64,000 bases of DNA from Bdellovibrio sp. 22V (GTDB lineage: Bacteria > Bdellovibrionota > Bdellovibrionia > Bdellovibrionales > Bdellovibrionaceae), in assembly GCF_030169785.1 (NCBI RefSeq), contig NZ_CP125854.1, positions 3,224,001 to 3,288,000 of the forward strand, given 5' to 3'. Numbering within the stretch: position 1 is the first letter of the stretch; every line of letters begins with the position of its first letter. A program made the translations under genes and the position numbers. The notes under the pieces were generated by a model, which made no database searches, was not told the origin of the DNA, and saw nothing but the letters and a program-made list of their open reading frames with translations. This document shows positions 2,929-16,300 of the stretch, one piece after another.

Positions 2929-4227
2929 ATGGATGACTTACTCGCCGCCCGCTCCACCATGGGCTTTTCATTAGGGTTTCATATCATCTTTGCCTCGATT
3001 GGGATGACGATGCCCTTTTTTATGTCGGCCGCGCACTTCCTCTATTTAAAAAAGAAAAATCCGGAGCATCTTGAACTCACGCAGATGTGGATGAAAGGTG
3101 TCGCCATTCTTTTTGCCGTGGGAGCCGTGTCAGGCACTGTGCTGTCGTTTGAACTTGGTTTGTTATGGCCGGGATTCATGAAATATGCGGGCCCGATTAT
3201 TGGAATGCCGTTTTCGTGGGAGGGCACTGCTTTCTTCCTTGAAGCGATCGCCATCGGTCTTTTTCTTTACGGATGGAAACGCATGAAACCGTGGGTGCAC
3301 TGGAGCACGGGTCTGGTCGTCGGTCTTTCCGGTTTCGCCTCGGGCATTTTTGTCGTTGCTGCAAATTCGTGGATGAATGCGCCTGCGGGTTTTGATTGGG
3401 TGAATGGCGAGGCTCTGAACATCAATCCAGTTCAAGCGATGTTTAACAAAGCATGGCTGCACCAATCTCTGCACATGCAGCTTGCAGCGTTGCAAGCTGT
3501 CGGTTTCGCGGTCGGAGGCATTCATGCATTTTTGTATCTCAAGGGCAAAGCGCGCGCTCTTCATCTGTCGGCAATAAAAATTGCGATGAGTTTTGGCGCC
3601 GTCGCCGCGATCCTGCAACCTTTTGCGGGGCACTTTGCCGCACAAAGAGTCGCGGAATTACAACCAGCCAAACTGGCCGCGATGGAAGGACATTTTAAAA
3701 CCAGCACGCAGGCTCCGCTCTATCTTGGCGGCATTCCGGATGTGAATGCGCAAGAGATGAAATACGGTATTGAACTACCGGGTCTGTTAAGTTTCTTGGC
3801 GTTTAATGATTTTGCCGCGGAAGTAAAAGGTCTTGATCAGTTTCCCAAAGAGTTGTGGCCGCCTCTGGTGATCACGCACATCAGCTTTCAGATCATGGTC
3901 GCCATTGGTACTTTGCTGGCTTTTGTCGGAGTTCTTTTCTTTGTCTTTATCAGAAAAAATAATTTTCCGTCATGGTTTCTCAAATTTTTAGTGGCGTGCA
4001 TTCCATTGGGTTTTATCGCCATAGAAGCGGGCTGGATTGTCACCGAGGTCGGCAGACAGCCGTGGATCATTTACGGCATTATGAAAACAAGCGAAGCGGT
4101 TACGCCCGTTCCTGGAATGAAATATCATTTCTATTTATTCTTATTCCTCTATCTGTTCTTAGGATTTATCACCGTGTGGCTGTTGCGACGTCAGATCTTG
4201 GCAGCGCAAAGAAAGTTTGAGACTTAG
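2929..4227 (+). CDS. cydA: Cytochrome bd-type quinol oxidase subunit I
   Basis: Inner-membrane haem subunit of the high-affinity bd oxidase, which oxidises quinol and reduces O2 without pumping protons. The protein has 432 residues with about nine membrane helices. Visible key residues: His18 (b595 ligand, GFHIIFA), Glu98 and Glu105 (SWEGTAFFLEA), His182 aligned with the b558 ligand, and the GRQPW motif. The region between helices 6 and 7 is short, so the enzyme belongs to the short Q-loop, CioA-like group. cydB begins 2 bp downstream. No CydX-sized gene follows cydB. Confidence 0.93.
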   Translation: MDDLLAARSTMGFSLGFHIIFASIGMTMPFFMSAAHFLYLKKKNPEHLELTQMWMKGVAILFAVGAVSGTVLSFELGLLWPGFMKYAGPIIGMPFSWEGTAFFLEAIAIGLFLYGWKRMKPWVHWSTGLVVGLSGFASGIFVVAANSWMNAPAGFDWVNGEALNINPVQAMFNKAWLHQSLHMQLAALQAVGFAVGGIHAFLYLKGKARALHLSAIKIAMSFGAVAAILQPFAGHFAAQRVAELQPAKLAAMEGHFKTSTQAPLYLGGIPDVNAQEMKYGIELPGLLSFLAFNDFAAEVKGLDQFPKELWPPLVITHISFQIMVAIGTLLAFVGVLFFVFIRKNNFPSWFLKFLVACIPLGFIAIEAGWIVTEVGRQPWIIYGIMKTSEAVTPVPGMKYHFYLFLFLYLFLGFITVWLLRRQILAAQRKFET

Positions 4228-4228
4228 G

Positions 4229-5227
4229 ATGATCGAGATTTTATTATTTTTCATCGGAGCTTCTCTTTTGCTGTACGTTCTTTTAGGCGGTGCTGATTAT
4301 GGCGCGGGAGTTTTGGAGCTTCTTCCGACTCGCAGACATCGCGAAGCCCAGCGTGAATTGATCAATGAAGCCATGGGACCCGTTTGGGAAGCCAATCACA
4401 TGTGGCTCATTCTGATTGTCGTTATTCTTTTTATGGGCTTCCCGTCAGTCTTTACGACGCTGATGACGTCTTTGCACCTCCCGATGGTCGCCTTGCTCTT
4501 AGGCATCGTTGTTCGCGGCTGCGCGTTTACGTTTCGGCATTACGATGCGATTAAGGGCGAAACCTCACAAAAGATTTACACCATGCTTTTTGGTGTTTCG
4601 AGTTTATGGACAGCGATGTGGTTAGGAATCATTGCCGCAAGTCTTGATCGCGGTTTGATCAATCCCGAAGCGCGAACTTTCTTTGAAGCCTACATTGCTC
4701 CGTGGTGGGGGCGTTATCCCTTCTTAATGGGTGTTTTCGTGGTGTGTATATTTTCTTTTCTTGCCAGCGTTTATCTCATCGGCGAAGCGAAAGAGCCCGG
4801 CTTGCAAAAGTTTTTCGCGCGCAGAGGCATGGTATTAAACTATCTCGTCGTCTTTGCCGGAGCGTTAGTTTTTTCAGCCTCTGCCGACGAAAGAACGCCG
4901 CTGCATCGTGAGTTCTTCAGGAATGAATATTCCGTGGGATGTATGGTTTTGGCGACTTTGCTGTTCTTTGCATTATGGTTTTTCGTGAGCAAAAGAAACA
5001 CGCTTTGGGTTCGCCTTATCGCCGGAGGACAAATAAGTTTGATTCTTTTAGGCTGGTACTTCTTGCATGCGCCCAACGCCCTTCTTACTCGGCAAGGACC
5101 TTTAAGTTTCTATGCCGCTGCCGCACCGACGGCGACTCTTTTACAACTTGTGATTGCACTTTTAGTGGGAAGTCTTTTTATTTTTCCAAGTCTCTTTTAT
5201 TTGCTTAAAGTTTTTAAAACAAAGTAG
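4229..5227 (+). CDS. cydB: Cytochrome bd-type quinol oxidase subunit II
   Basis: Second membrane subunit of the bd oxidase, 332 residues, with about eight or nine helices and no haem ligands of its own. It is recognised by the N-terminal GGADYGAGVLELL and GPVWEANHMWLIL motifs. The ATG at 4229 sits 2 bp after the cydA TAG, consistent with coupled translation; an upstream TTG at 4217 would add four residues and is less likely. The gene ends against an imperfect GGTACC palindrome and a convergent gene. Confidence 0.93.
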   Translation: MIEILLFFIGASLLLYVLLGGADYGAGVLELLPTRRHREAQRELINEAMGPVWEANHMWLILIVVILFMGFPSVFTTLMTSLHLPMVALLLGIVVRGCAFTFRHYDAIKGETSQKIYTMLFGVSSLWTAMWLGIIAASLDRGLINPEARTFFEAYIAPWWGRYPFLMGVFVVCIFSFLASVYLIGEAKEPGLQKFFARRGMVLNYLVVFAGALVFSASADERTPLHREFFRNEYSVGCMVLATLLFFALWFFVSKRNTLWVRLIAGGQISLILLGWYFLHAPNALLTRQGPLSFYAAAAPTATLLQLVIALLVGSLFIFPSLFYLLKVFKTK

Positions 5228-5727: not shown

Positions 5728-6070
5728 GCTTAACCCCACCTCTTTAAAAATTATAGAAGAAGAGTTCTTCGAAGAAAAGTGATTTTCCATTAAGGAAGCG
5801 CCATTTTGTGGCACTGGTGAATCATTCTTTCACGTTCGGTTTCAACTTGCACCACAGACAGCCTTGGTATCACTGTGCAACTATTTGACAGGACTTTTTC
5901 CACATTCCCGAAATACTCACAACTCTAATCAAAGCCATGCCCTAGTCGCGCGCCAAGTGACGAAGATTGTCTCTTTCCAAAATGCACCACCCCTTCTGGA
6001 TCTTTCTGAAACACCTCTGGCACCTTCGTTGCTCATAATGGATCAGGATTTACCGTGGAGGATTATATAT
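5728..6070. promoter_or_regulatory. Divergent intergenic region, 343 bp, upstream of the gliding-type operon
   Basis: Holds the control regions of the secreted protein on the left and of the ten-gene operon on the right. A perfect 12-bp palindrome TTCTTCGAAGAA lies at 5765-5776. A TTGACA hexamer is at 5885-5890 but has no convincing -10 at 16-18 bp. The last 16 bases carry a GGAGG-like site for the gene at 6071. No coding sequence is supported here. Confidence 0.4.
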
Positions 6071-6760
6071 ATGGAATTCCTATTATCTTTAGGCCGTGGA
6101 TTTACATCAGCAGACGCGATTTGGATGTGGGCTATTTTAGCAGCACAAATCGTTTCAATCGCTATTATCGCAGAAAGAGCTTTGGCTCTCTTTGTGGCGC
6201 GCAAAACAAATCAAAAGGAGCTTTCTAAGGTTCTTGCGGAAGACATCCGTGCTGGAAACTTGGATAAAGCTTTGCGCAGATCCCTGCAAATGGGCGCAAA
6301 AGAACCATTGGGTGTTGTTGCCTCTGCAGGTATTCAAGCTGCTCTCGATATGGGTGGCAAAGAAGAAATCCAACTTAAAATGGATGAAGTTCTTCTTGAA
6401 GAAAACTCTCGCGTGGAAAAACGCATCGGTTTCTTGGCGATGTTTGCCAACGTCGCTACTTTGTTAGGTCTTTTGGGTACGATCACAGGTTTGATCCACT
6501 CTTTCGCGGGTATCTCGAATGCAAACCCGGCAGAAAAAGCGACGATCTTGTCTCAAGGTATCTCTTTGGCGATGAACACGACAGCTTACGGTTTGATCGT
6601 GGCAGTTCCTGCTTTGATCATGTATGCGGTTTTGCAAAACAGAGCTTCACGTTTAACGGATGACCTTAATAAAGGTGCTTTGAATCTTTTCATTCAATTG
6701 GGTTTCCACTACGAACCCGTAACTGCGAAAAAAGAAGTTCCTGCTAACGCTGGGAGATAA
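6071..6760 (+). CDS. TolQ/ExbB/MotA-family proton channel, AglR-like
   Basis: Inner-membrane stator subunit, 229 residues, predicted to couple proton flow to work on periplasmic partners. Three hydrophobic segments are seen: residues about 17-36, 115-140 (FANVATLLGLLGTITGLIHSF, the conserved family core) and 165-185. The ATG at 6071 follows GTGGAGG; a longer reading from 5864 has no family similarity. It heads an operon with two TolR-like genes, the arrangement of Myxococcus aglRQS, the motor of gliding. Tol-Pal would need pal and tolB, which are absent, and a Ton system would have only one ExbD, so the Agl assignment fits best. Confidence 0.85.
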   Translation: MEFLLSLGRGFTSADAIWMWAILAAQIVSIAIIAERALALFVARKTNQKELSKVLAEDIRAGNLDKALRRSLQMGAKEPLGVVASAGIQAALDMGGKEEIQLKMDEVLLEENSRVEKRIGFLAMFANVATLLGLLGTITGLIHSFAGISNANPAEKATILSQGISLAMNTTAYGLIVAVPALIMYAVLQNRASRLTDDLNKGALNLFIQLGFHYEPVTAKKEVPANAGR

Positions 6761-6762
6761 TC

Positions 6763-7233
6763 ATGGGCATGATGGGCGGCGCCGGTGATGGCGACAAAGA
6801 ATTGAACTTTGAACTTAATATTCTACCGATCCTGGATATCTTGTCGGTCTTGATCTGTTTCCTTTTGCTAACGGCAGTCTGGATTCAAATCGGCACTATC
6901 GACACGCGCCAGGCGATCGGGGATAACTCCGTTGCTGGAGCTAAAAATCCTCCTTCCTTGTATATCACGGTAAACACACAAGGAGCGGTTCAACTTTCTT
7001 TGCGCGATCTTCCTGGTGCCAAAACCCATGAAGACAGCATTCAAGCGCAAGGCCGCGGTGTGAACTGGTCGATGCTTGAACAAAAGCTGCAGGCTCTGCG
7101 CAATAAGTTTCCGGACCTTAAAACCGGAATCGTTCGCCCTGAAGCGCAAGCTTCTTATGGCGACGTGATTCGCATCATGGACAAACTTAAACAGTTTCAA
7201 TTTGAAGGAGTGGGTTTATCCCCTCTTGGGTAG
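6763..7233 (+). CDS. TolR/ExbD-like stator protein (first copy), AglQ/AglS-like
   Basis: Single-pass inner-membrane protein of 156 residues with a periplasmic domain. The membrane segment is about residues 20-43, and Asp25 in ILPILDILSVL is at the position of the proton-carrying aspartate of ExbD/TolR. The C-terminal part (YGDVIRIMDKLKQFQFEGVGLSP) is the typical ExbD dimerisation fold. It starts 2 bp after the TolQ-like stop, so production is coupled. With the next gene it gives the one TolQ plus two TolR set seen in aglRQS. Confidence 0.83.
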   Translation: MGMMGGAGDGDKELNFELNILPILDILSVLICFLLLTAVWIQIGTIDTRQAIGDNSVAGAKNPPSLYITVNTQGAVQLSLRDLPGAKTHEDSIQAQGRGVNWSMLEQKLQALRNKFPDLKTGIVRPEAQASYGDVIRIMDKLKQFQFEGVGLSPLG

Positions 7234-7239
7234 GACTTT

Positions 7240-7731
7240 ATGAAAACGTCTTCCTTTGCTGATTCTAAAAAAAGATCTCCCCTGAGCGACTTGCAAAACT
7301 TGAAGCCGGGGATGAAAAAGAAGAAAAGCGCCGGTCACAACCTGGCGCTGGCTCTGCCATTGACCTCTTTGATCGACGCTTTTTCGATCATCGTGATCTA
7401 TCTTCTTATCGGCACACAAAACAGCGGCATGGAGTCCCCTGTTCCCACAAAAATGAATCTTCCCATCGCTGAACACAGTGTTGGTGTCGAGAAAGAAACT
7501 CCGATTTTGACGATTCAAAAAGGCGTTTACCGTTTGAACGACGTTATCGTTCCCGTGCGCGCTTTGGGTGAAAAATTGGCCGAGTTAAAAGCTAAATCCC
7601 AAGAGAAATCTTTGGAGCTTTTGGTGCAAGCCGATCAGGAAATGAAATACGAAGACTTGGATCCTTTGCTTAAGGCAAGCTCCTTGTCTGGTTTCGAAAA
7701 AATGAAATTTGCGGTGGTACCTGCACGATGA
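7240..7731 (+). CDS. TolR/ExbD-like stator protein (second copy), AglS/AglQ-like
   Basis: Second ExbD/TolR-type protein, 163 residues. A basic cytoplasmic N-terminus (residues 1-33) longer than in the first copy precedes the membrane helix near 38-60, with Asp46 in PLTSLIDAFSIIVIYLL as the proton-carrying candidate. The C-terminal domain has the ExbD pattern (LVQADQEMKYEDLDPLLKAS). Its stop overlaps the start of the next gene by 4 bp. Retention of aspartates in both copies suggests that both are active in proton conduction. Confidence 0.82.
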   Translation: MKTSSFADSKKRSPLSDLQNLKPGMKKKKSAGHNLALALPLTSLIDAFSIIVIYLLIGTQNSGMESPVPTKMNLPIAEHSVGVEKETPILTIQKGVYRLNDVIVPVRALGEKLAELKAKSQEKSLELLVQADQEMKYEDLDPLLKASSLSGFEKMKFAVVPAR

Positions 7732-10688
7732 AAACACTGAACGATATCCTAGTTGTAAGCGCTTTTTTAACAGGGATCTTGAGCTCCCCTCAGGCCTTTG
7801 CTGACAAAATGAACGCAGAGACTCAGGATCTCGTTATCAAAAAGATGGAAAGAGTTCTTTCCGCAATGGAAAAGACCGACAACGCCTGGCTTTCAAGCCA
7901 ACAGCGTTTGGCGGATCTTCTTTCTGAAAGAGCCCGCACTCGTTTTATGAGTGAAATCGAAGCCGGCTGTGAAGGCTGCAAAGGCTCTAAAGACGACCGC
8001 CAAAAGGCCGTCAAAATTTACGAAACAATTCTGCAAGAAGTAAAAGTGAATGAGCACGGCCCGATTCTTTTTCAACTGGCGCATCTTTACGAGATGGCCG
8101 GCCAAAACGATAAAGCCATTGCTCTTTACGAAAGCATTATCAAAGATGCTAAAAAGAAAAATATTAATGCTGAAATCGTAACACGTTCTCGCGTTGGTTT
8201 GGGCGACCTCCTTTTCCAAAAAGGCCGTTTCGCTGATGCACGTGAACACTACAAGGTGGCTTTGAAGGATAAAAATCTTCAAAACCGTTATTTGACGATC
8301 TATAACGTCGCTTGGTGCGAATATAACACGGACAATTTAAAGGGCGCGATTGCGACCCTTGAAGACCTTTTAAGAAATCCCGAGATGATCCGTCGTGAAA
8401 CTGAAGACGGTTCTAAATACGATGCGCCTTTTCACACGGACATGCTTCGCGACCTTGCAACTTTCTATACGAAGCAAGACGTAACGACTCGTGAGATCAA
8501 CACGTTTGAAGCTCTTGCTCCGATTGAAAAGCGTAAAGACTTGATGTTGTACTTTGCTAAAGAAACGGACCGTATCGGTCAAAAAAAACCGGCCCAAGAA
8601 ATCATGAGCCGTTACTTGGCTGACAATGCTCTTTCCAAAGAAGAGCGTATCGAAGCTTCCATTCAGTTAGCGCAAATCAATTACGATCGCGGCAACACAA
8701 AAGAATCCGTTACTGAATTCGGAAAAGCCGCCGCCGCTTTGCAAAAGTCCGGTTGTTCTGGTGACAAGTGCGAAGAACTGCAAAAGACGATGAAACGTTA
8801 TGTAACGGAACTTCACCGCTCTAAAAAATTGAAACCTGATCAAGATTTGATGAGCGCTTATTTGACTTACAATAAAACCTTCCCTGCCGATATGGAGATG
8901 ACTCAACGTGGGGCCTCTGTTGCGATGGAAATGAGCAACTTCCCTGTAGCAGTGGCTTTGTACCGCACTGTCAGCGAAAGCCGTTCTTTCTCGCAAAAAG
9001 AACGCGAAGAAGCTTTGTTGAACGAAGTTTCCGCGGCGGAAAAATCAAAAAATCCTTCTTTGCAAAGAGACGCCTACATTCACTATTTGAAGTATGCTCC
9101 ACGCAATGCCAAGTCGTTTGAAGTAAAATACCAGCTCGCATACTTGAGCTACCAACAAAAACAATACGCGGATGCAGCCGAATCTTTCGAAGACCTTGCG
9201 AAAGATAAAAACGGAACTGCAGATCTTCGTAAAAAAGCCGCGGATCTTTCACTAGACGCTTTGGCGCAATTGAAAAACGAAAAAGTTTTGGAAGATCTTG
9301 CTTGGGATTACTCTGAGATTTTTCCGCAGGCTCGTGCGGAATTCGAAGGTATCGCGCGTAAATCCTTGATGAACCGCGTGGCTCGTGTTGCGAATGACTC
9401 TCGCTCTAGCTCTTCGGATCTTAAAAAAGCTTTGGCTTCTTTGGATGCCGATAAAGTGAAAAATGCCAGCAGCGCGGAAAAGATTCTTTTCTATAACAAC
9501 CAAAGCGTTCTTGCAAAAAAGCTTGATGATGAAAAGACTTATATCGCGGCTTTGACTTCGCTGATGGCCGTTCCTGGTTTGACTTCCGAGCAACGTGAAA
9601 ATGCGTTGGAGCAAATGACAGGTTACTACGAGAAAAAATTAGATTTCAAAAACGCTTATGTTACGGCTTTGCGTTTGCAGAATGCGAAAATCTCTGAAAA
9701 GGAAAAAGAATTCCGTCTTGGAACTTTAGCGGACCTCGCGGGTCTTGATGCTTCCAAACACTATCGTCGCGCTTTGGATGCGGGACTTCGCGGAGAAAGA
9801 TCTTTGATCGTTCGTTCCCGCCTGGTTTTGACTTCTTCGAACCCGGCTCGCGAATTAAAAACGCAAGCACGTGAGTTGAAACAACGCCCGGCTCTTCTAA
9901 ATGAAACAGCTTTATTGGTGTATGCGCAAACGGGCGACGCTTCTTCCATCAAGTCCGTTCTTGAGATGAAAGAAATGCGTAAACAGTCGGCTCCCCTGTT
10001 TATCAAAAAACAAGCGTTCTATACAAAAGCGCAAGAGACTCGGGCTAAAATTGCTGACAGCTATTTAAGTTCAAACAATGATCGCGCTTTGCAAAAATCC
10101 ATTGCTGCGCGTGTCGCCCTTCTTAAAAAAGCGGATGCTCTTTTGGCGGAAAGTTTGCCTTTAAAAGACGTCACGGCGCAGATGATGGCTTTGGCGATCG
10201 TTTCTTATGAGAACGAACGTATGGTGCGTGACCTGGCTTCGTTGCCTCTTCCGGAAAAACTGTCTCCACAAGAACAAAGACAATACATCTCATTGCTTAA
10301 AGCTCAGTCGAAACCGTTCTTGTACAAGGCTCGCGTAGCTCAGCAGAAACAACAAGAAATCTGGAATAGATCTCCGGGTCTTGCGCAGACTTTGCGTGAT
10401 TTCAAAGTGGCTCGTCCTGAAATTCGCAATTTGTTGGCTCGTGAGCTGACTTTGCTCAATCAGATTCCAGGTAAAGGCCCTATGAAAACAGCTTTGGAAG
10501 ACGCCTTGGACGAGAGACAACTTTCGTCACGTGATTTAGTGTCTGCGCGCCAATCAGTTGCAGCTGACCCTGCAAATATCCGCAGTATTGAAAATTTGAA
10601 ACTCATAGAGACCAAAATTGGCCACCCTCTTATGCCTGCTTACTTGGAAGCGCGTATAAGCCATCTCCAGAGAGGAAAAAGCCTATGA
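7728..10688 (+). CDS. Large periplasmic TPR protein, GltD/AgmU-like
   Basis: A 986-residue exported helical-repeat protein: signal peptide at residues 1-25 (cleavage after AFA), then a long array of tetratricopeptide-type repeats (for example FQLAHLYEMAGQNDKAIALYE near 110-130, and AYLSYQQKQYADAAESFEDL near 470-490). Just before the array is a CxxC motif, Cys81 and Cys84 in GCEGCKGSKDD, with more cysteines near 345 (SGCSGDKCEE). By size and place it resembles the large TPR protein of the Myxococcus gliding complex (GltD/AgmU), but one-to-one orthology is inference. It overlaps both neighbours by 4 bp. Confidence 0.72.
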   Translation: MKTLNDILVVSAFLTGILSSPQAFADKMNAETQDLVIKKMERVLSAMEKTDNAWLSSQQRLADLLSERARTRFMSEIEAGCEGCKGSKDDRQKAVKIYETILQEVKVNEHGPILFQLAHLYEMAGQNDKAIALYESIIKDAKKKNINAEIVTRSRVGLGDLLFQKGRFADAREHYKVALKDKNLQNRYLTIYNVAWCEYNTDNLKGAIATLEDLLRNPEMIRRETEDGSKYDAPFHTDMLRDLATFYTKQDVTTREINTFEALAPIEKRKDLMLYFAKETDRIGQKKPAQEIMSRYLADNALSKEERIEASIQLAQINYDRGNTKESVTEFGKAAAALQKSGCSGDKCEELQKTMKRYVTELHRSKKLKPDQDLMSAYLTYNKTFPADMEMTQRGASVAMEMSNFPVAVALYRTVSESRSFSQKEREEALLNEVSAAEKSKNPSLQRDAYIHYLKYAPRNAKSFEVKYQLAYLSYQQKQYADAAESFEDLAKDKNGTADLRKKAADLSLDALAQLKNEKVLEDLAWDYSEIFPQARAEFEGIARKSLMNRVARVANDSRSSSSDLKKALASLDADKVKNASSAEKILFYNNQSVLAKKLDDEKTYIAALTSLMAVPGLTSEQRENALEQMTGYYEKKLDFKNAYVTALRLQNAKISEKEKEFRLGTLADLAGLDASKHYRRALDAGLRGERSLIVRSRLVLTSSNPARELKTQARELKQRPALLNETALLVYAQTGDASSIKSVLEMKEMRKQSAPLFIKKQAFYTKAQETRAKIADSYLSSNNDRALQKSIAARVALLKKADALLAESLPLKDVTAQMMALAIVSYENERMVRDLASLPLPEKLSPQEQRQYISLLKAQSKPFLYKARVAQQKQQEIWNRSPGLAQTLRDFKVARPEIRNLLARELTLLNQIPGKGPMKTALEDALDERQLSSRDLVSARQSVAADPANIRSIENLKLIETKIGHPLMPAYLEARISHLQRGKSL

Positions 10689-10960
10689 AATCAGCACTAA
10701 CTTTGGCCCTCGTTTTGCTACTTTCCCAGGTGTCGTTGGCCTCGGGAAAATCCGCTAAAAACGGAAAAGCCGATAAACCAGTCGCGAAAAAATCTCAGCT
10801 TGGAACCTCTTTCAGATTTAGCGGTTCCTCCCTTCGCGGAAAGTATCAGACTTCGATGGGAACAGCGGCGACGGTGGAAAACGACAAACTTTTAGAAGAT
10901 CTTTTGAAAGGCCGTACTCAGTTTGAGGATCGCCAGGAAAAAGAAACAGAACGTAACTAA
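10685..10960 (+). CDS. Small exported protein in the gliding-type operon
   Basis: A 91-residue protein: signal peptide MKSALTLALVLLLSQVSLA, a lysine-rich linker, then a short block GTSFRFSGSSLRGKYQ and an acidic, charged C-terminus. No known domain is recognised. It overlaps the TPR gene by 4 bp and lies 11 bp before the TonB-like gene, so it is probably a small periplasmic part of the same machine. Calling it a counterpart of one of the small Glt proteins would be guesswork. Confidence 0.6.
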   Translation: MKSALTLALVLLLSQVSLASGKSAKNGKADKPVAKKSQLGTSFRFSGSSLRGKYQTSMGTAATVENDKLLEDLLKGRTQFEDRQEKETERN

Positions 10961-10971
10961 GGGTAAACGAT

Positions 10972-12201
10972 ATGAGCGCAGCGAAACTTCTGATTCTTGA
11001 AAACACTCTCGGCCAAAAGGTTCGCACTTTTGCGGTTCACGCTGATTCTATGAATCTGGTGTACCTCAAAGACAGTCGCCGCGTTGAAGCCTTTACTGAC
11101 TTAAACGAACTTAACGAAAACGGCATTCCTTACACTCTTCTTCAAGAGATTCAACTTTCGCAACTTTCCGAAGAAGGTCTTGTTCTGCAAGGTTTGGGTC
11201 GCGTTCGCGCCTTCCCCGCAAACGGCGTACAAAACAGCCCGACGCACACTTTGGCGGAAGAACAAGACGAAGAGCAACTGAAAACAATCCTGCAAAAGAC
11301 AACTGCAGGACACATGATCGCGATCTTTGTATTGCTTTTGGGTTCATGGGTTTACACAAACTATTTCATGAAAACTTCAGAGCCACCTCTTGTAACGATT
11401 ATGCTTCCACAAGAAGAACCGCCTGTGAAAACTCAGCCTGAGGCGCGTCCTCATGTGAAAGTTTCTAAAACTAAAATCAAGCAATCCAACAAAGTCTATC
11501 GTCCTGTTGCTAAAAAAATTAAAAGCAAGCCTTACAAAGTGAACACGGCAAAAGCGAAAGACGTTCGCCGTGTTGGAGCTTTGGCGGCTCTTGGCGGTTT
11601 GAAAAACGGCGCTATGGACGCTGAAGGTTTGGATATGCAATCTCTTAAAAACATCCGCGCGGCTGGTAAGGGCGCTGGTGGTGGCGGTATCGGAAACGCG
11701 GGTCGCGGTGGCGCGCGCGGATACATGCCGGGCAACGGTTTGATCGCGGGTTCTGCCGGTGAAGGCGCTCGTGCTCAAGGAGCTGGTGGTTACGGAACGA
11801 AGGGTTCCGGTGGCGGCCGTGCTGGTTATGGAAAGATCTCTTTAGTTGGTGGCACTTCGGCCGTCAGTCTTCCCCTTGATGAAGAAGTCGTTGTTGAAGG
11901 TGGTCTTGACCAAGATCAAATCCAAGCTGTTATCAACCGCAACAGAGGTCAAATTACTTATTGTTATGAAAAAGGCTTGCAAGGCCAACCTACTTTGGGC
12001 GGTCGCGTGGCCGTGAGCTTCGTGATCGGCGCTGCCGGCAAAATCACGACGGCAAAAGTGGCAGAGACTTCTTTAGGTTCTCGTATGGTTGAAAACTGCA
12101 TGTTGCAAAAAATGAGAACATGGCAGTTCCCTCGCCCGGTTGGCAAAGTGAATGTTGACGTTCTTTATCCGTTCGAACTTTCTCGCGTGAGCGCTCGTTA
12201 A
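10972..12201 (+). CDS. TonB-like protein with AgmX/PglI-type C-terminal domain, GltG/GltJ-like
   Basis: A 409-residue trans-envelope protein. Residues 1-105 form a cytoplasmic domain of FHA-like size, though no FHA signature is clear. One membrane helix lies at about 115-133, then a Pro/Lys-rich stretch (135-185) and a glycine-rich tether (about 220-285). The C-terminal domain (about 310-405) has the AgmX/PglI pattern: INRNRGQITYCYEKGL, GRVAVSFVIGAAGKI and WQFPRPVGKVNVDVLYPF, with one cysteine in each half. In Myxococcus such proteins connect the Agl motor to outer-membrane parts. This domain is the strongest single pointer to the Glt identity of the operon. Confidence 0.83.
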   Translation: MSAAKLLILENTLGQKVRTFAVHADSMNLVYLKDSRRVEAFTDLNELNENGIPYTLLQEIQLSQLSEEGLVLQGLGRVRAFPANGVQNSPTHTLAEEQDEEQLKTILQKTTAGHMIAIFVLLLGSWVYTNYFMKTSEPPLVTIMLPQEEPPVKTQPEARPHVKVSKTKIKQSNKVYRPVAKKIKSKPYKVNTAKAKDVRRVGALAALGGLKNGAMDAEGLDMQSLKNIRAAGKGAGGGGIGNAGRGGARGYMPGNGLIAGSAGEGARAQGAGGYGTKGSGGGRAGYGKISLVGGTSAVSLPLDEEVVVEGGLDQDQIQAVINRNRGQITYCYEKGLQGQPTLGGRVAVSFVIGAAGKITTAKVAETSLGSRMVENCMLQKMRTWQFPRPVGKVNVDVLYPFELSRVSAR

Positions 12202-12215
12202 GAGGAGATGTGAAT

Positions 12216-13229
12216 ATGAAAAACACCCAAACTCTTATCCCCGTTTTAGCTTTGTCGCTCCTCGCAGGATGTGGCGAATACAGCAAGGACCCGGTTCCTG
12301 AGCTTCAAAAAATGCGTGAAAACGCGAAAGTTCAGATTCAACAAGGTCCTGACAAAGCTCGCGAGATTGTTAAGACCGAAATCGTCGAAAAAGAAGTTGT
12401 TGTTGTAAAGGAAGAATCCACGATCGACGAAAAGTTCATCGTGATCACTCCTGATCCACAAATGACTTTCAATGAAGGCCAAACAAGTCAGTTTAAAATC
12501 CGCGCACGCGTTCTTGTTCCTGGCATCGAAGTAAAGTTGACGGCAGCAGGTCTTCCTGAAGGCGCTCGCCTTGAAAGATCGCAAAAAGAAAAAGATCTTT
12601 ATCTTTTGACTTGGACTCCGGCTCTTTACTCTATCCCTGCAAACTATGCGATGAAGTCTTACCCTGTGAAAATCACGGCGGAGGTTACTTCTGCGAACAA
12701 TCAAGCGGAAGCTGATAAACTTAAAGGCCTTGTGCGTGAAAAAGAAGTGAATTTGTTCTTGTTCCGCAACCAGGAAGTGCCTTCTGAATTGGCTGTTGCA
12801 GGTTTAACTCAGGAAGTGAACGAAGGAACTTTGGTGCCTTTCACGATCACGGTAAAAGTACCGGGCATCGACGACAAAACGCCAGTGAAACCGACTTTGG
12901 TTGTCTCCTACGATGCTGTCAGCTACACAGCGGGTAATAGCTTTCTTGAATTGGATGGCGCTCGTTACGTGATGCTTGATGCGACTAAGAAAGACGCTGA
13001 ATACCTTGGCGACTCTAAATGGAAATTCACACGCGTTTTCGACACGAAAAACATTTCTGTTCAACCTCAGCTTGCAAAAGACGGAACTGTTTTAGCTGGC
13101 GCTGACGGGACTCGCGTTCGTTTGAGCTTTAAAGTTTACAGCCCCTACGGTCTTTCGACGCCTGAATCATTGACTCAGGTTAAAATCCGCTACGCTCAAC
13201 CTGTAACCACTCCGGAGGTTGCAAAATGA
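12216..13229 (+). CDS. Lipoprotein of the gliding-type operon
   Basis: A 337-residue predicted lipoprotein: signal ending in the lipobox LLAGC, then an acidic/basic helical segment (DKAREIVKTEIVEKEVVVVKE) that could be a coiled coil, and two Ig-like or cadherin-like beta domains (about 85-175 and 190-325; note VTPDPQMTFNEGQTSQF-type and GLTQEVNEGTLVPFTI strands). The ATG at 12216 is well placed after AGGAG; a GTG two codons upstream is possible. Its place before the beta-barrel gene recalls GltK before GltB/GltA in Myxococcus; orthology is not shown. The gene overlaps the next by 4 bp. Confidence 0.65.
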   Translation: MKNTQTLIPVLALSLLAGCGEYSKDPVPELQKMRENAKVQIQQGPDKAREIVKTEIVEKEVVVVKEESTIDEKFIVITPDPQMTFNEGQTSQFKIRARVLVPGIEVKLTAAGLPEGARLERSQKEKDLYLLTWTPALYSIPANYAMKSYPVKITAEVTSANNQAEADKLKGLVREKEVNLFLFRNQEVPSELAVAGLTQEVNEGTLVPFTITVKVPGIDDKTPVKPTLVVSYDAVSYTAGNSFLELDGARYVMLDATKKDAEYLGDSKWKFTRVFDTKNISVQPQLAKDGTVLAGADGTRVRLSFKVYSPYGLSTPESLTQVKIRYAQPVTTPEVAK

Positions 13230-13975
13230 AAACAATGAATCTTTTGACGGTCGCTGTTCTCGCTTGCTCTCTTTTCGCAGTTTCAGCTCAAGCCGCTTCT
13301 GCGAAAAGCAGAACTTCTGCAAAAACAATCAATGCCTCTGAAGACATCGACTCTTTGGGTGGCAATAAAGAATTGATGGAAATGGCAGAGAAAGTGAAAT
13401 CAACAAGCCGTTCGCGCATCGTGCAAGAGCGTATCGTTGACCGCCGCAATACTCTGGAATTCGGTCTTTCTTACGGAAGCACGTTCGGTGGCGATGCTTA
13501 TTTGAAAACACAAAGTTTGGGCGTGGCTGTGGATTACCACATCACTCCCCGCTGGTCTTTGGGCGTTCGTTATTACGATTTCGGTAGCAGCCTGACAAGT
13601 GAAGGTCAGCGTGTTTTTGATGAAGCTCGTGCCGCTTACAATGCTGGTGGCCGCGCGAATATCGTAGATGTCGACTATCCACTTAATGCGACGATGGCTG
13701 TTGTGAACTGGTATCCTATTTACGGTAAAACCAGCTTTTATGACATGGGCGTTACGCAGTTTGATATTTACCTTCTTGCTGGTGGCGGCTCCATCACTCT
13801 TTCCAGCGGCAACACGTCTATCTTGACTGGTGGCGTGGGTATCGGCGCGTGGATGACAAAACATCTTTCTGCGCGTGCGGAAGTTCGCTACCAAAAATAT
13901 GAAGATCAAATCGTAACAGGTTCCCGCTCTTTGGATACTGTTGTTGGCTCTCTTGGTCTTGGATGGATTTTATGA
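13226..13975 (+). CDS. Outer-membrane beta-barrel protein, GltA/GltB-like
   Basis: A 249-residue exported protein: signal peptide to about residue 24 (VSAQA/A), a helical periplasmic stretch to about 70, then alternating amphipathic strands (TLEFGLSYGSTFGGDAYL, SLGVRYYDFGSSL, ARAEVRYQKYED) ending at the extreme C-terminus in LGLGWIL, as expected for a small outer-membrane barrel. In the Myxococcus machine, GltA and GltB are barrels of this size. It overlaps both the lipoprotein and the following TPR gene by 4 bp. Confidence 0.72.
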   Translation: MKTMNLLTVAVLACSLFAVSAQAASAKSRTSAKTINASEDIDSLGGNKELMEMAEKVKSTSRSRIVQERIVDRRNTLEFGLSYGSTFGGDAYLKTQSLGVAVDYHITPRWSLGVRYYDFGSSLTSEGQRVFDEARAAYNAGGRANIVDVDYPLNATMAVVNWYPIYGKTSFYDMGVTQFDIYLLAGGGSITLSSGNTSILTGGVGIGAWMTKHLSARAEVRYQKYEDQIVTGSRSLDTVVGSLGLGWIL

Positions 13976-15006
13976 TGAAGTCAGTTTTCGCTCTTAGCAC
14001 AATCGCGCTTCTTGTCTGCGGCTTGAACTCTCGAGCAATCGCCGCTGACCGCGTTTCGACAGCGGACTGGGCGAAAAACTGGGCTCGTTCTGCAACTGCG
14101 AACAAAGCCTTTTCTACTTCGGATATCGAGAAGAAAGCACTTGGATCTTGCAGCGACTGCGAGAATAAATCTTCTTTAAGAAAAGCCCGTCAGCTTTTTG
14201 CTAAAGGCCAGTTCGATGCTGCGATTTCCTCTTACAATGAAATTCCTCGGGGCAACACTTACTGGTTGTCGGCTGTAGAAGAAAAAGGCTGGGCGTATTT
14301 CCGTCAGGAAAACTACGAAAAAGCTTTGGCGCAAACGAAGACTTTGTTGGCTCCACAGTTTGCAGAGATTTCTAATTCTGAAGCCTTCTTATTGCAGTCT
14401 TTAACTCAATTAAAGATTTGCGATTACAAAGGTGTTTTTGAAACTCACCAGATTTTCAAAGAAAAACAAAAGAACCGTATCATGGAAGTTCAGAAACTTG
14501 CGAAGTCCGGCTGGAACGACGCTTTGACACAAGTTCTTAAAAAAGCGGATCAGTTCCCTTTGACTTTGGATGATATGGGCGACGCGGTTCAACGCCTGCC
14601 TCTTTTGATTTACAAAGATGTGGAGTTTCAAAAGCAAGCTTTGCGTTTTAAAGCTTCTGAAAAAGCGATTTACCAAGTGGAGTCTCCACGTTTGAAAAAT
14701 GTTTTGGAGAAAGCTAATACAGATGCTTTCCTCGCTCTCAAAAAACGTGTGCAGGAATTGGCTCAGGAAGAAACGAACGAAAACTTCGTGATCATTCAAA
14801 AGTTGAATCTTGTCGAAGTTGAAGCCATCCAACGTGTTCACACTGACATGAACATGGCAGAGGCTTTGTACAACGAAAATAAATTTAAAGACGTTCAGGA
14901 CGACAAATTGGTCTTTATGGATGATGGCAGACCTTGGATCGACGAACTTGATAAGTTCGAAGTGGCATCGAAAGCATGCGCTAAAGGGATCAGGAGGAAG
15001 ATGTGA
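13972..15006 (+). CDS. Exported TPR-like protein, GltC-like position
   Basis: A 344-residue protein starting at the ATG in an ATGATG overlapping the previous stop (the second ATG is equally possible). The signal peptide ends near AIAA. A CxxC pair in GSCSDCENKSS lies at about residues 60-63, followed by TPR-like helices (KARQLFAKGQFDAAISSYNEI). The same CxxC-then-TPR order occurs in the 986-residue protein of this operon. The rest is helical with a single late cysteine. Position after the barrel gene recalls GltC of Myxococcus. Stop and next start overlap (ATGTGA). Confidence 0.62.
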   Translation: MMKSVFALSTIALLVCGLNSRAIAADRVSTADWAKNWARSATANKAFSTSDIEKKALGSCSDCENKSSLRKARQLFAKGQFDAAISSYNEIPRGNTYWLSAVEEKGWAYFRQENYEKALAQTKTLLAPQFAEISNSEAFLLQSLTQLKICDYKGVFETHQIFKEKQKNRIMEVQKLAKSGWNDALTQVLKKADQFPLTLDDMGDAVQRLPLLIYKDVEFQKQALRFKASEKAIYQVESPRLKNVLEKANTDAFLALKKRVQELAQEETNENFVIIQKLNLVEVEAIQRVHTDMNMAEALYNENKFKDVQDDKLVFMDDGRPWIDELDKFEVASKACAKGIRRKM

Positions 15007-16247
15007 GAAACGTCATCATCGTCGCAATTTACGTAACGGCTTATATGCTTGTTTCAGCGTGCAGTCCTGAGTCCGCGACTCTGCGTGCGGAAAAACCTTT
15101 GATACAGCCGGAAGTTGTCATTCCCCAGTATGAAAAAACAGCTCCGCAAACTTTCGAGTGGATCACTGAAGACGGCGGTCAAAGCCAGCTTGAGTTCAAT
15201 CCCCAAGTGGATATTTTGTTTGTAACGGATAACTCTGACAGTATGAAATCCGCGCAAGAGAATTTGATCCGTAACATCGACAAGTTCACTGCGGGTATTT
15301 TGAAAAACCGTATGATTGACTATCATATCGGTGTGATTTCTGTTTGGGACAGCTCTGATCGCTATACGCAAACCAAAAAAGATCAATACCAAATGGGTGA
15401 TCTTCGTTTGATCAAAAATACCAAAGGCCAAACTTCGACAACGCGTCGTTTTGTTGCTAAAAGAGATCAAAATCCTGCGTTGATCGCGGCGTCCTTGCAT
15501 ATCGGTGTAACGCCTTATGCTCAAGGCGGTCCCGAGTTCGAAGAAATGTTTTCTCCTCTTGCGGCGGCTCTGGAAAAGACCGGCCGTGGCGCTACAAATG
15601 AAGACTTCTTCCGTCCTGACGCCCAGCTTGTTGTCGTTCTTTTGACGGATGCCGATGACTCTTCAAAAAGCATTACTCCTGAAGAAATGGCGCAAAAGCT
15701 GATCGCTTTTAAAGGCGGTCGCGCCGAGAAGGTGTCTGCTTACGGTGTGCTTGTACGTCCACAAGATCCTGACACTTACAAAGACTGGGATTTGAAAGTT
15801 CACCCTAAGTATCATCCCGAGTGCTTCGATATGTCGCAAAAGACTCCGAAGAACAACGGCACTTGTACAGGGTTCGGTCCCGAGCGTTTAGAAAAGTTCA
15901 TCGTCGCGGCCAACCAAAATGAAGGCACGCCCGATCAAATTCGCGCGAAACACATCATGAGTATCGTGAGCCCTAAGTTCGGGGAAGATTTGGCGAAGAT
16001 CGGTTCTGACATCACTGTAAAGACTTTGGAAAAAGATATTTTCTTAAGCCAACGTCCTCGCGTGCAAAACGGTCAGTTGATGGTTCGTGTTCGTTACGGA
16101 AAACAAGTGATCCCGCAAAGAGCGAAAGGCGGATGGTTGTACAATCCTGAAGACAACTCCATCCATCTTTCCGGCGACATCAACTATGAATACGTTGAAG
16201 GCGCGCGTTTTTCTGTGGACCTGGTTCCTTTGACTTTGAAACAGTAA
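15003..16247 (+). CDS. Lipoprotein with a von Willebrand factor A domain
   Basis: A 414-residue predicted lipoprotein that starts at a GTG overlapping the previous stop; the lipobox is LVSAC (Cys20). The VWA domain spans about 68-290: the first strand VDILFVTDNSDSM carries a MIDAS-like DxSxS motif, and VVVLLTDADDSSKS supplies the later aspartates. VWA domains bind protein ligands through a metal ion. Surface VWA adhesins are known in gliding (CglB of Myxococcus is a VWA-type lipoprotein), so an adhesin linked to the machine is a sensible inference. This is the last gene of the operon; a terminator follows. Confidence 0.75.
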   Translation: MRNVIIVAIYVTAYMLVSACSPESATLRAEKPLIQPEVVIPQYEKTAPQTFEWITEDGGQSQLEFNPQVDILFVTDNSDSMKSAQENLIRNIDKFTAGILKNRMIDYHIGVISVWDSSDRYTQTKKDQYQMGDLRLIKNTKGQTSTTRRFVAKRDQNPALIAASLHIGVTPYAQGGPEFEEMFSPLAAALEKTGRGATNEDFFRPDAQLVVVLLTDADDSSKSITPEEMAQKLIAFKGGRAEKVSAYGVLVRPQDPDTYKDWDLKVHPKYHPECFDMSQKTPKNNGTCTGFGPERLEKFIVAANQNEGTPDQIRAKHIMSIVSPKFGEDLAKIGSDITVKTLEKDIFLSQRPRVQNGQLMVRVRYGKQVIPQRAKGGWLYNPEDNSIHLSGDINYEYVEGARFSVDLVPLTLKQ

Positions 16248-16273: not shown

Positions 16274-16300
16274 AAGGGAAGCCTCGGCTTCCCTTTTTTA
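16274..16300 (+). terminator. Rho-independent terminator after the gliding-type operon
   Basis: A 9-bp stem (AGGGAAGCC at 16275-16283 with GGCTTCCCT at 16286-16294), a very short loop and a run of six T. It ends the ten-gene operon and lies just outside the convergent dtd gene. Confidence 0.88.

Follow-up and report, generated by a model that had tools for sequence, protein, structure and literature searches.

A ten-gene Agl-Glt-type operon of Bdellovibrio sp. 22V with a conserved terminal VWA lipoprotein gene and a predicted sigma-54 promoter

One important question raised by the ten-gene locus analysed here, which lies in a 64,000-nucleotide stretch of the Bdellovibrio sp. 22V genome (hereafter the window), is whether it encodes a gliding machine related to that of Myxococcus, a Tol-Pal or Ton system, or a device for contact with prey, and what part the VWA lipoprotein encoded by the last gene may play in it. 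The open reading frames of the window included ten contiguous genes on the plus strand at positions 6071–16247 (Table 1), and the family matches agreed with the gene set proposed in a preliminary description of this DNA, all of whose members were found. The contiguity of the genes and the family matches also support its assignment of the motor, the bridge, the barrel and the VWA lipoprotein to a single unit, which is closed, as it had stated, by one strong terminator-like hairpin. The claim that nearly all genes are joined by 4-bp overlaps was too strong, because such overlaps are present at four of the nine junctions, the others consisting of one 13-bp overlap and four gaps of 2–11 bp.

Table 1. 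Predicted features of the operon and its upstream region (positions in the window).
Feature	Position	Strand	Evidence
Possible degenerate activator site GTGACGAAGATTGTCTC	5956..5972	+	Half-site only in window
Predicted sigma-54 (-24/-12) promoter TGGCACCTTCGTTGCT	6018..6033	+	Exact consensus, 37 nt upstream of first start codon
AglR/TolQ-like stator subunit	6071..6760	+	PF01618 (MotA_ExbB) 2e-30; Agl-type clade, separate from TolQ/ExbB
AglQ/TolR-like stator subunit	6763..7233	+	PF02472 (ExbD) 1e-19; D25 kept (read from translation)
AglS/TolR-like stator subunit	7240..7731	+	PF02472 (ExbD) 1.5e-18; D46 kept
Exported TPR protein, 986 aa, GltD/GltE position	7728..10688	+	TPR families; cassette conservation
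Small exported protein, 91 aa, GltF position	10685..10960	+	Position and size; cassette conservation
GltG-like TonB-type bridge protein, without FHA part	10972..12201	+	NF033760 5e-37; NF033768 8.5e-30
Lipoprotein, tandem Ig-like domains	12210..13229	+	Lipobox LAGC by reading; AF2 model; PDB search
Outer-membrane beta-barrel, Glt type	13226..13975	+	TIGR04565 6e-30, exceeds cut-off
GltC-like TPR protein	13963..15006	+	NF033756 9e-13
MIDAS/VWA lipoprotein, adhesin candidate	15003..16247	+	Lipobox, DxSxS, AF2 fold
Predicted intrinsic terminator	16274..16295	+	9-bp stem, then T-run

Both TolR-like proteins retain the aspartates previously described, the intramembrane D46 of the AglS-like protein being invariant in 44 sequences. 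In family profile searches the bridge protein contained an AgmX/PglI domain (8.5e-30), and its match to the GltG model (NF033760) was confined to residues 163–403, which correspond to the C-terminal part of GltG. The GltG and GltC (NF033756) matches lie in the same locus and both fall under the full-length equivalog cut-offs, and the barrel was identified as OMP_myx_plus (6e-30). Pfam and NCBIfam searches gave no family match for the 91-aa protein, the gene of which occupies the place of a GltF-sized gene in related clusters. In the lipoprotein with Ig-like domains the lipobox Cys21 was invariant in the alignment, and a PDB search with its AF2 model (pLDDT 80) returned Ig tandems.

The type of the stator was assessed by profile searches and phylogeny. 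The TolQ-like gene of the window scored 82.4 bits against the TolQ equivalog (cut-off 221), whereas the real TolQ of the same genome, which served as control, reached 229.9 bits and passed; Tol-Pal is a separate locus elsewhere in this genome. The single contig (3.60 Mb) holds four Agl-Glt-type clusters, named A (the window cluster), B, C and D. In the stator tree all Agl-type sequences, that is, clusters A–D together with myxobacterial AglR, formed one clade (SH-aLRT 94.7, bootstrap 95), and the genome's own TolQ and ExbB remained outside. Although the stator fold is homologous to that of Tol-Pal and ExbB-ExbD-TonB, the window stator lies far under the Tol and Exb cut-offs, in agreement with the proposed Agl-Glt rather than Tol/Ton affiliation. 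A housekeeping Tol-Pal or Ton role is ruled out by the profile scores and the tree, and the assignment of the motor to the Agl type is well supported by the same comparisons.

Within this clade the stator of cluster D grouped with myxobacterial AglR (95.6/91) and that of the window cluster fell outside the group; clusters A and B formed a branch of their own with weaker support (95.8/66), and the branch of the window cluster is assigned as specific to Bdellovibrionia. The pairing of D with AglR rules out that the window cluster is the direct AglRQS orthologue. The earlier link to Agl-Glt therefore stands for the type of machine, on which the tree and the Glt profiles agree, but not for orthology, the counterpart of Myxococcus AglRQS/GltG being cluster D. 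Since cluster D joins AglR and the A/B branch stands apart, the window operon encodes a machine of the Agl-Glt type without being the direct counterpart of the gliding motor of Myxococcus. Engine A is thereby set apart from the true AglRQS orthologue D, both of which the literature lumps as gliding clusters. The operon has in common with the Agl-Glt system of Myxococcus xanthus an AglRQS-type stator, GltG-, GltC- and Glt-barrel-like proteins and a VWA lipoprotein. However, the Myxococcus machine is spread over several loci, whereas that of the window is one operon, with its stator in another branch than myxobacterial AglR, with a GltG-like protein lacking the FHA part present in Myxococcus GltG, and with neither GltI nor GltJ.

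Comparison with strain HD100 assigned the window operon to the orthologous locus running from Bd0420 (R) down to Bd0411 (VWA), because the HD100 gene positions fit (Bd1483/Bd1481/Bd1480 for VWA-GYF-AglR-AglQ, and Bd0843 for the RpoN gene adjoining cluster D). This locus has the ten genes in identical order (52–86% identity), and nothing essential distinguishes it from the window operon. The limits of the HD100 cluster are given as Bd0412-Bd0420 in PMC2797640 and as Bd0411-Bd0421 in PMC12546842. As the preliminary description had noted, Agl-Glt-type clusters are reported in Bdellovibrio, and the HD100 orthologue has already been described as a gliding cluster induced by predation (PMC2797640, PMC12546842). 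The system is already known in outline; it is of a known kind and the operon is partly described. In the literature examined, neither a sigma-54 promoter nor a VWA gene that belongs invariably to the unit is described for Bd0411-Bd0420, and what is new here is the conserved terminal adhesin-candidate gene, the predicted sigma-54 switch and the distinction drawn between this cluster and the true AglR orthologue.

The three other clusters differ from the window cluster to varying degrees. Cluster B (Bd2368-Bd2377) matches the window cluster in its ten genes and their order, the VWA gene being last, but shares only 26–53% identity with A, has no sigma-54 box and is expressed at another time (prey exit). 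Cluster C (Bd1473-Bd1483) also combines an Agl-type motor with a VWA lipoprotein of its own, the MIDAS protein Bd1483; it differs in that the VWA and GYF genes come first, the AglQ-like protein lacks the intramembrane Asp and the sigma-54 box is absent. Cluster D (Bd0828-0838) is without a VWA gene and encodes two barrels and an FHA-bearing GltG that matches GltG positions 1-388.

The order R-Q-S-TPR-F-G-lipoprotein-barrel-C-VWA was identical in all 18 A-type loci fetched. It was also present in most of 20 further loci, which represent several families of the class Bdellovibrionia and had been picked for carrying the TPR gene. Among the exceptions, L071 and L072 end in a large divergent gene, L073 has no VWA gene and L089 is interrupted by its contig edge, and in some of these 20 loci the Ig lipoprotein was too divergent to be recognized. 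The ten-gene order with the VWA gene last thus recurs across the class Bdellovibrionia, and a layout unique to Bdellovibrio sp. 22V is ruled out. Because ten genes recur with their order kept in orthologous loci and in most order-level relatives, the gene set is not due to chance. The A/B-type TPR gene was found in 86 genomes, only one of them outside the class. A VWA gene near an Agl-type motor was also seen in a few Bacteriovoracaceae, Bdellovibrionales and Oligoflexia MAGs; distant VWA matches in other families, often outside agl clusters, were left out of the counts.

Could the protein encoded last be the adhesin of this machine? It matched VWA (Pfam, 1e-3) and CglD (NCBIfam, 1e-8), its best family matches being CglD and MIDASAdhsBdello, both far under cut-off, and a first contig scan with this protein as query gave no match. 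The lipobox Cys20 and the residues D76-x-S78-x-S80 were invariant in the first alignment, and the DxSxS motif was kept in 47 of 48 cassette VWA proteins. The AF2 model (pLDDT 84.7) matched integrin I domains (Z about 15, rmsd 3.3 A, about 190 residues) and also integrin beta headpieces over about 250 residues, and the pilus adhesins PitA and RrgA were among its Foldseek matches. CglB of Myxococcus did not appear among the structural matches, which has no bearing either way; the window protein shares with it the architecture of a VWA/MIDAS outer-membrane lipoprotein. VWA and motor distances were correlated (r=0.83, permutation p 0.001), with a contribution from shared species history, and the VWA proteins of clusters A, B and C were each nearest to their own cassette type in other genomes and not to the sister cassette of the same genome. 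This indicates that the VWA protein and its motor are inherited together; one motor is fixedly paired with one MIDAS lipoprotein, and an adhesin candidate can be named for engine A. A role as surface adhesin is plausible, in which case the protein would be exposed at the surface and would bind a ligand there. The adhesin partner had been called less defined, and this holds for the papers examined; Bd1483, in another HD100 gliding cluster, is a VWA gene known earlier and deleted without a predation phenotype (PMC11003981). The same paper cites a surface secretome study in which the MIDAS proteins Bd0875 and Bd1483 were found.

The upstream region was searched for the sigma-54 consensus TGGCAC-N5-TTGCW at a fixed distance from the gene, exact matches to which are expected 0.05 times per 64 kb. 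Across 19 A-type loci, the window included, the box was exact and identically placed in 12 and carried 1–3 mismatches in six, and it was not found in the most distant one; several A-like order-level loci also have it. Clusters B, C and D are without this box. Seven exact sites are present in the 3.6 Mb genome, one of them that of the operon, and the other six are intergenic and upstream of a gene, in one case a flagellar rod operon. RpoN is encoded in the genome, and its gene adjoins cluster D in HD100 (Bd0843). The operon, unlike the other three clusters, has its own predicted and conserved sigma-54 promoter, which names a candidate switch for engine A; no report of a link between sigma-54 and this operon was found in the literature searched. 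In seven A-type loci, that of HD100 among them, the -24 element is preceded at a distance of about 59 nt by a perfect GTGAC-N10-GTCAC palindrome. Because this palindrome is perfect only in some relatives and degenerate in the window, we treat it as a lead.

To our knowledge, no mutant of the Bd0411-Bd0420 cluster has been reported. In array experiments Bd0412-0420 were induced 4–7-fold at 30 min of predation and not in prey-independent growth (PMC2797640), and in the published proteome (PMC12546842) the Bd0411-0421 proteins peak at 45–60 min and those of Bd2368-2377 at prey exit. Such timing suggests that the cluster is used at prey entry or afterwards, rather than mainly for gliding on open surfaces. 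The gliding or prey-contact role suggested earlier is accordingly favoured in its prey stage and disfavoured as mainly open-surface gliding. Bd0838 of cluster D is needed for prey attachment, and it is the only gliding-cluster gene named in the Tn-seq text examined (PMC6561027).

The cassette was also compared with lifestyle. Cluster A was present in all nine named periplasmic Bdellovibrio genomes checked (HD100, W, LBG001, KM01, NC01, SKB1291214, Tiberius, SSB218315 and ZAP7) and absent from both epibiotic predators checked, JSS and qaytius, which do not enter prey. JSS has retained cluster D alone; in qaytius clusters C and D are retained, together with one more, divergent cluster. Since both belong to one sister lineage, further genomes of which (lifestyle not known) are also without A, they amount to one contrast and not two, and this contrast is confounded with phylogeny. 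A general requirement of the cassette for periplasmic predation is not supported, because a cassette type nearly absent outside the class implies that other periplasmic predators manage without it. With an adhesin-candidate gene, a predicted sigma-54 switch and its absence from two non-entering predators, cluster A can be put to the test as a device for movement within the prey.

Taken as a whole, these data are probably best explained by an Agl-Glt-type force-transmitting adhesion machine that is switched on during or after prey entry. In such a machine R and the Q/S pair would form a stator driven by protons, which by analogy would be a 5:2 rotary unit. Its motion would be carried through the periplasm by the GltG-like TonB arm together with the large TPR protein and the small F protein. 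An outer-membrane gate may be built from the barrel, the Ig lipoprotein and the GltC-like TPR protein, with the VWA lipoprotein as the surface grip, acting through a metal-dependent MIDAS site. The sigma-54 promoter, with the GTGAC-N10-GTCAC activator site in several relatives, would activate the whole cassette at once; the predator could then hold and move against prey material during or just after entry, a role suggested by the published expression timing. The silent deletion of Bd1483 in a sister cluster, the GltG-like protein without FHA and the confounded lifestyle contrast are points against this explanation. Only tentatively can the proposal be sharpened to a stage-specific, sigma-54-switched, ion-driven machine whose MIDAS lipoprotein takes hold of prey structures from within the prey. 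It would then belong to a set of paralogous engines that serve different steps of the predatory cycle and mostly carry a VWA grip of their own.

Other readings of the same genes have to be weighed against the adhesion machine. The stator and the GltG-like arm might instead open the barrel, as in TonB-like transport or secretion, to take material up from the prey or to export it into the prey; the VWA and Ig lipoproteins would then do no more than dock the machine to prey or wall. The C-terminal half of the bridge protein indeed matches TonB models, expression inside the prey would suit feeding or secretion, and energised secretion or uptake was put forward as one option by Lambert et al. (PMC2797640). 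Nevertheless, the barrel is a small OMP_myx_plus protein, the cassette contains no TonB-dependent receptor, all Glt-type envelope parts are present, and uptake needs no invariant MIDAS lipoprotein, so that we regard transport as rather unlikely. It is more doubtful still that the window cluster is the general surface-gliding engine of Bdellovibrio and its in-prey expression incidental. Gliding is established in Bdellovibrio, the literature labels each of the four clusters as gliding and the gene content is of the Agl-Glt kind; but it is cluster D that has the AglR orthologue with a full-length FHA-GltG, the surface-induced gene is bd1480 of cluster C, and the window-type cluster responds to predation and not to prey-independent growth (PMC2797640).

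VWA domains also act in assembly, and the last protein might accordingly be a periplasmic assembly or force-sensing subunit, not an adhesin, of a machine that remodels the predator's own envelope. This is the least probable of the alternatives and would be a surprising outcome: the silent deletion of the sister-cluster gene Bd1483 (PMC11003981) would suit it, whereas the lipobox and the MIDAS are conserved and the related Bd0875 and Bd1483 were recovered in the surface secretome.

The intramembrane aspartate is missing from the AglQ-like protein of cluster C (the Agl-type cluster in which the VWA and GYF genes come first); it is present in the counterparts of clusters A (the window operon), B and D. 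Therefore, the cluster C stator may conduct through a single Asp only. A divergent fifth Agl-type cluster was observed in Ca. B. qaytius, adjoined by a GYF gene and a VWA gene in divergent orientation.

Two tandem VWA genes, versus the usual one, close a cassette in genome G110 (locus L086), and among the order-level cassettes the final gene encodes a divergent protein of ~515 aa in loci L071 and L072, and the VWA gene is absent from L073.

In the Bdellovibrionaceae genomes examined, cluster D has rpoN as a neighbour, together with genes for an LptC-like protein and an LptB-type ABC protein. The window operon is preceded on its own strand by cytochrome bd oxidase-like genes, with a small opposite-strand gene in between.

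Coordinates of the features described (positions within each locus or the window)
Feature	Position	Remark
Cluster C AglQ-like protein	L013:7528-8070	
Cluster C AglQ-like protein	L017:11844-12401	
Fifth Agl-type cluster, Ca. B. qaytius	L178:7287-17864	
Cluster D neighbourhood, example	L042:755-2502	rpoN just past this interval
Cytochrome bd oxidase-like genes	window 2929-5227	same strand as operon

Directly downstream of the other exact sigma-54 sites of this genome and of HD100 (L090-L097), which constitute a small candidate regulon, genes for exported proteins and a flagellar rod operon were found.
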